From Phaeobacter sp. QD34_24 (GTDB lineage Bacteria; Pseudomonadota; Alphaproteobacteria; Rhodobacterales; Rhodobacteraceae): DNA of 64,000 nt. Every line of letters begins with the position of its first letter. Positions within the stretch are counted from its first letter, which is position 1. Both the position numbers and the translations under genes were made by a program. Below the pieces are notes generated by a model that ran no database searches, was not told the origin of the DNA, and saw only the letters and a list, made by a program, of their open reading frames with translations. The stretch lies in the NCBI RefSeq assembly GCF_028890115.1, contig NZ_JARCJD010000002.1, positions 1-64,000 on the forward strand, in the 5' to 3' direction. This document shows positions 47,744-48,176 of the stretch, one piece after another.

Positions 47744-48145
47744 CTAGTGTATTTTTGCTAGGGGCGCAAAGGCCGGATCTTTGCTGCGCCCTTGCGGCAC
47801 AAGCAACAGGTCCAGCATGCCGGATATATCCTCGATGGTTTCCGCGATCACATGGGTGACCGAATGGCTCCGCTGCAGCCGTCCGGTGATCCGCAGGAGG
47901 CGTCCGGAAATCACGGCGCGCCTGTAAGCCTCGTATATGTTGCGCCAGACGATCACGTTCACCACGCCGGTTTCATCCTCCAGCGTGATGAAGATCACCC
48001 CCCTTGCGGTGCCGGGCCGCTGCCGCAGGATGACCAGCCCGGCCACGCAGACACGGGCGTTCTCGGGGCGTTGCTGCAACCGGTCGGAGGTCAGGCAGCT
48101 GGGCGGAGTGCGGGAGGGGGCAGGCTTGCGGTTCATCTTTGGCAT
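47744..48145 (-). CDS. Stand-alone OB-fold like the C-terminus of error-prone polymerase DnaE2
   Basis: A 133-residue protein. From about residue 32 it matches the C-terminal OB domain of DnaE2: [49 protein letters not shown] and [13 protein letters not shown]. All polymerase parts (palm, fingers, PHP) are missing, and the upstream DNA holds only a promoter region. The first 31 residues are basic, Pro-rich and unrelated to DnaE2. It could be a deletion relic of an imuAB-dnaE2 cassette or a kept small DNA-binding protein. A LexA box lies 17 bp upstream. Confidence 0.75.
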
Positions 48146-48161
48146 CCAGAAATCTCAACTG

Positions 48162-48176
48162 GAACAAAAGTAGAAC
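48162..48176. promoter_or_regulatory. LexA (SOS) box
   Basis: GAACAAAAGTAGAAC fits the alphaproteobacterial LexA site GAAC-N7-GAAC (GTTC-N7-GTTC read on the minus strand). It is 17 bp from the start of the DnaE2-like OB-fold gene and 111 bp from the ferredoxin start on the other strand. Confidence 0.7.

Follow-up and report, generated by a model that had tools for sequence, protein, structure and literature searches.

The gene at positions 47744 to 48145 (reverse strand) of the window, the whole 64,000-nucleotide stretch that was analysed, is a stand-alone gene for the OB domain of the error-prone polymerase DnaE2. It probably represents one half of a split DnaE2, with the OB protein acting in trans as an SOS-induced subunit of a core encoded elsewhere in the genome. 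Judged by sequence comparison, the split is found in most of the roseobacter lineage, where the two pieces lie at distant loci, each with its own predicted LexA switch.

The gene starts at ATG and encodes 133 amino acids, with an OB-fold at approximately residues 30 to 107 and a C-terminal helix to approximately residue 115, but without the SRDF[H/R] tail. Residues 17 to 113 matched positions 942 to 1038 of the 1,047 positions of NCBIfam PRK05672 (error-prone DNA polymerase; NF004225) at E 1.6e-31, other DnaE models scoring far below NF004225, and an OB-fold was also assigned by Pfam (3.4e-12). These matches confirmed the suggestion of an earlier note that the gene encodes the C-terminal OB domain of DnaE2 only. 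The AlphaFold2 model was a confident beta-barrel with a core pLDDT of >90, and its Foldseek matches were OB-folds. Compared by sequence against the PDB, the OB on its own gave weak matches only, including Thermus Pol III alpha at E 0.49. The N-terminus of the protein, ending in ...ARV, aligned with PPACLTAAQLE...ARV of the fused DnaE2 of Albimonas, whose linker PWPRPPACLTAAQLEAPPEKARV matches the N-terminus of the stand-alone protein. By this alignment the N-terminus is mostly former DnaE2 linker with approximately 12 extra residues, and only the latter part bears out the description of the protein as having its own basic N-terminus.

The remainder of DnaE2 was found on a different contig from the OB gene (G000:C52:27265-30153), as an intact-looking but OB-less core containing PHP (just under the Pfam cut-off), DNA_pol3_alpha, DNA_pol3_finger, and HHH_6 domains. 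This core stops at residue 975 (...VALLRHILTPQD), exactly at the point at which the OB starts in relatives with a fused gene, and neither an OB nor an intein domain was found in it by Pfam scan, nor was an intein domain found in the OB protein. Core and OB are thus not carried on one polypeptide in the source genome, since the core ends at the HhH/OB boundary and the OB is on another contig. The core has a LexA-like box of its own, GAACAAAACATGAAT, approximately 40 bp before the likely start and less perfect than the OB box; GAACAAAACGTGAAT or a close variant was the form in nearly all cores examined. In most species the second half-site of the core box is GAAT, not GAAC. This weaker form is conserved and may indicate that core and OB differ in the strength or timing of their induction.

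The source genome also encodes the replicative DnaE1, an ImuB (G000:C2:95444-97129; approximately 50% identity) with the LexA box GAACAAATATAGAAC upstream, an ImuA-like gene whose start is boxed (G000:C5:80039-80458; 36% identity across a portion of the protein), and a lexA gene that is itself boxed (GAACATGAATAGAAC). Core, OB, imuB, and the imuA-like gene therefore occupy four separate loci, each with its own box, rather than one LexA-controlled operon. The search for imuA-imuB-dnaE2 elsewhere in the genome, as the earlier note had advised, thus recovered an OB-less core, imuB, and an imuA-like gene, but in dispersed form and with a dnaE2 that was not full-length.

A perfect alphaproteobacterial GTTCN7GTTC LexA box, GAACAAAAGTAGAAC (GTTCTACTTTTGTTC on the coding strand), lies at positions 48162 to 48176 (reverse strand), 16 bp upstream of the ATG, close to the 17 bp given in the earlier note. 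The bare GAACN7GAAC pattern occurred at 100 sites in the source genome versus 85 for the reversed control, which is near chance; a single box consequently proves little, and single boxes were not taken as proof. Orthologues of the short gene were found in more than 75 genera, and among the named records a perfect GTTCN7GTTC preceded 75 of 77 stand-alone OB genes and neither of two fused genes, 68 of these perfect boxes lying no more than 5 bp, and usually 1 to 2 bp, from the ATG. Across the stand-alone orthologues the conservation of the predicted box exceeds chance. The OB gene of G017 is without a perfect box.

The promoter appeared to be conserved along with the box. In 68 distinct OB promoters, the box ended 1 to 5 bp before the ATG (2 bp in 47 of them), several spacer bases were conserved, with the spacer reading TAT-x-TTT, and a TTGC/TGGAC element stood 16 to 17 bp ahead of a TATATT-like hexamer inside the box. 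The ATG in the source genome and its genus is 16 to 29 bp downstream of the box. Consensus inference alone assigned the probable elements in the window, a -35 TGGACA at 48189 to 48194 (reverse strand), whose position is conserved among orthologues (T 94% and G 88% at the two best positions), and a -10 TACTTT at 48167 to 48172 (reverse strand), within the spacer of the LexA box and 16 bp from the -35, which is TATATT in many orthologues. If these assignments are right, the OB mRNA would be leaderless in species with the box 1 to 5 bp from the ATG, with transcription starting at or beside it. Repression and induction of the OB gene by LexA are accordingly predicted from the promoter.

The distribution of the two pieces was surveyed in 198 genomes of the family, one per genus. 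Stand-alone OB genes were present in 84 genomes and OB-less cores in 85, with both in 80; hence, 80/84 OB genomes had a core and 80/85 core genomes had an OB (Fisher 1e-34, a value that ignores relatedness). None of the 58 listed genomes with fused DnaE2 only carried a stand-alone OB gene. Short reading frames for the OB lying at the ends of contigs (G012 C2, G024, G118, G122, and G182) and G205 C29 were left out as probable pieces of broken fused genes. When 19 named genomes were tested by OB locus, 18 had an OB-less core, the exception being Albimonas with its fused gene. Genera with the stand-alone OB included Pseudophaeobacter, Ruegeria, Tritonibacter, Phaeobacter, Shimia, Roseivivax, Mameliella, Roseovarius, Pseudooceanicola, Planktomarina, and Tabrizicola. 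Four of the five core genomes in which no OB was found were fragmented assemblies of at least 300 contigs; the fifth, G071, with approximately 100 contigs and 99% completeness, is not easily dismissed. Conversely, the near-complete genome G078 had an intact LexA-boxed OB gene (contig C4 2083564-2083899), and no DnaE2 was found in it. The tree of DnaE1, which served as an independent marker, gave 11 changes in the presence of the core and 12 in that of the OB. Within 8 independent contrasts on this tree, the OB went with the core in 7.2 on average and against it in 0 (median p 0.016). On this phylogenetic evidence, core and OB come and go together.

The OB gene was also found at a constant address. 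In the main clade the order is HflC-HtrA-(lipoprotein)-OB-ferredoxin-FG-GAP-PurD, and it was the same even in the deep, small genomes G036, G117, G163, and G199. In the window, the address is marked on the left by an HtrA/DegP protease gene (44465 to 46060, forward strand) and on the right by a divergent 2Fe-2S ferredoxin gene (48287 to 48610, forward strand), while a peptidoglycan-binding lipoprotein gene (47179 to 47691, reverse strand) is directly downstream of the OB gene, as in approximately half of the loci; all three are outside the system. Between htrA and ferredoxin the OB was missing in G012, G019, G203, and G015, relatives with fused DnaE2, and in G005, which carries two fused imuA-imuB-dnaE2 cassettes, only a decayed OB fragment without a box remained (L318 3937-4056). 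As G028, the tree neighbor of G005, has kept an intact core-OB pair, the OB is lost along with the split core. Fused DnaE2 copies in the family are often on plasmids (Dinoroseobacter, Sulfitobacter, and Thioclava), which is consistent with a mobile fused cassette having taken the place of the split system.

In G221, which lies outside the main clade, a single contig carries both the core and the OB; the latter is LexA-boxed and retains the ancestral SRDFH tail (HPRDQAKRLFPSRDFH), and the arrangement gives the impression of a split captured in situ. An arginine-deiminase-family gene lies between the two on the opposite strand (L237 6429-7271(-)). In G110, the OB is relocated away from the main address, with an eroding tail. 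The core tree required three changes; a single clade of all split cores could not be rejected (AU p 0.19), though it was not shown either. Separate splits for G110 and G221 are suggested by synteny, by the inserted gene, and by the tails that persist, so that OB and core were probably separated more than once, in the main clade, in G110, and in G221.

The OB gene was under constraint, with a within-genus dN/dS of 0.05 to 0.23. A comparison of the OB/core divergence ratio between split and fused lineages gave no sign of the OB evolving more freely once separated: although the OB had diverged more than the core within the source genus, the distance ratio was 0.78 in split lineages versus 0.91 in fused lineages, which argues against relaxation. 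As measured by these ratios, the gene is under purifying selection and no freer than the OB within fused DnaE2.

The following history and mechanism are proposed. In an ancestor of most of the family, the OB domain would have been cut from the C-terminus of DnaE2 and would have come to lie between htrA and the ferredoxin gene with a LexA box of its own, while the rest of the polymerase kept another LexA-like box elsewhere. Upon DNA damage, LexA would be cleaved, and core, OB, ImuB, and the ImuA-like protein would be made from the four loci. The OB protein would then rebind the core noncovalently and restore a working mutasome polymerase, most likely doing the job of the fused OB, i.e., contact with ssDNA, the clamp, or ImuB. 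Physical binding of OB to core and a role in synthesis are predicted from the genomic pattern. In the main clade the SRDF[H/R] tail is absent from both OB and core, while it is kept in G221 and eroding in G110; hence, the rebuilt complex would not be identical to fused DnaE2 and would differ in whatever the tail does. Published work describes this tail as present in approximately 77% of DnaE2 sequences and as a putative interaction motif whose function is yet to be established (PMC3919608).

That the OB is gained, lost, and degraded together with the core speaks more for a subunit acting in trans than for a mutasome competitor. Two genomes count against a strict subunit, G078 with an OB and no DnaE2 found and G071 with a core and no OB found, as does a published mutasome model that places the DnaE2-ImuB contacts in the PHP and (HhH)2 regions and not in the OB (PMC12926913). 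It is nevertheless rather unlikely that the OB protein has left the polymerase for another SOS role, whether by binding ssDNA, by modulating ImuB or the replicative polymerase, or by competing with the mutasome. The distance between OB gene and core, the lost SRDF tail, and the case of G078 would suit such a role, and the OB of E. coli Pol III alpha contacts the clamp and binds ssDNA when isolated (PMC4703070), so that a free OB could act alone; the same paper disputes that the OB of Pol III alpha serves as an ssDNA sensor. However, a core-independent factor would not be expected to be matched with the core in gain and loss on an independent tree, to decay in G005 where the split core is gone, or to be missing from beside fused DnaE2 alone throughout the survey. 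Of the two outcomes that the earlier note had envisaged, a separate OB protein thus holds as a LexA-boxed gene in more than 75 genera that is not decaying, while the competitor role attached to it is less favored than that of a subunit.

The other envisaged outcome, a deletion that joined the SOS promoter to the dnaE2 tail and left a functionless drifting remnant, is very improbable. In its favor, an OB copy at the same address in G005 is decaying, but a dN/dS well below 1 and intact OB frames with a conserved promoter in dozens of genera are against drift, and a simple deletion is ruled out by the presence of the rest of dnaE2, OB-less and with its own box; this reading was dropped on the dN/dS and the finding of the core. 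Some survey genomes are fragmented, and pieces of fused genes at contig edges resemble short frames, yet it is hardly credible that assembly errors or frameshifts merely made a normal dnaE2 look divided, and this reading was refuted, because long contigs and complete chromosomes (G002, G003, and G016) showed the split, always at the same syntenic address and with its own box. Equally implausible is a rejoining of the halves after translation. Intein-rejoined split DnaE genes, as in cyanobacteria, are mentioned in PMC3919608, but here the core ends directly after the HhH and the OB starts with the old linker; as Pfam detected no intein domain in either protein, the reading was dropped.

Within the trans-acting subunit reading, a further possibility is put forward tentatively: the OB may be a detachable, separately dosed subunit, giving core-only and core-plus-OB forms (or an OB lent to ImuB or DnaE1), with the separation selected for. 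Selection is suggested by the apparent repetition of the separation, in the main clade, G110, and G221, each time under a LexA box.

Compared with the one-operon imuA-imuB-dnaE2 system with fused DnaE2, the polymerase family, a homologous OB, the SOS boxes, ImuB, and an ImuA-like gene are shared, whereas here the OB gene stands apart at a different locus, the SRDF[H/R] tail has disappeared, and four loci share the parts of the cassette. Previously, OB-less DnaE2 sequences were noted in one sentence by Timinskas et al. 2013 (PMC3919608). Like the cores described here, these end before the OB domain, and they likely include cores of this kind; the separate OB gene, its LexA box, and its lineage, described here, are not described in the accessible part of that paper. 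No account of a separate DnaE2 OB gene was found in the open-licence literature, where PMC3919608 was the only mention of OB-less DnaE2, and a 2026 polymerase survey with 11 mutasome types does not mention one in its accessible part (PMC12926913). As far as these sources extend, OB-less DnaE2s themselves were already known in 2013, and what is new is the whereabouts of their OB. The stand-alone ImuB-C of Actinobacteria with DnaE2 (PMC12926913) is likewise a mutasome domain made as a separate small protein, but the domain is a different one (the C-terminal barrel of ImuB), the bacteria are different, and the polymerase is DnaE2B, not a split DnaE2. With the cyanobacterial split DnaE, the origin of a C-family polymerase from two genes is shared, but there an intein rejoins the halves, and here no intein domain was found and the protein is divided between two domains.

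The separate gene accounts for the "OB-less" DnaE2s and adds a likely subunit to the parts list of the mutasome, and searches for imuA-imuB-dnaE2 operons miss such a dispersed system. Because a large group, cultured roseobacters among them, carries the OB as a separate, deletable gene and has lost the tail, removing that gene offers a test of what the OB does while the polymerase is left uncut.

Two minor features of the split genomes were also observed. Their ImuB proteins are approximately 550 to 580 amino acids long versus 485 in the canonical query (own ImuB, L101 4442-6133), with an insert of approximately 50 residues near residue 165 that is basic in the source genome. The cores of Mameliella, Antarctobacter, and G023 (L246, L249, and L091) end in HPRD/HPRN, which resembles the beginning of the former DnaE2 tail (HPRDQAK...SRDFH), and these ends are possibly a relic of OB excision.
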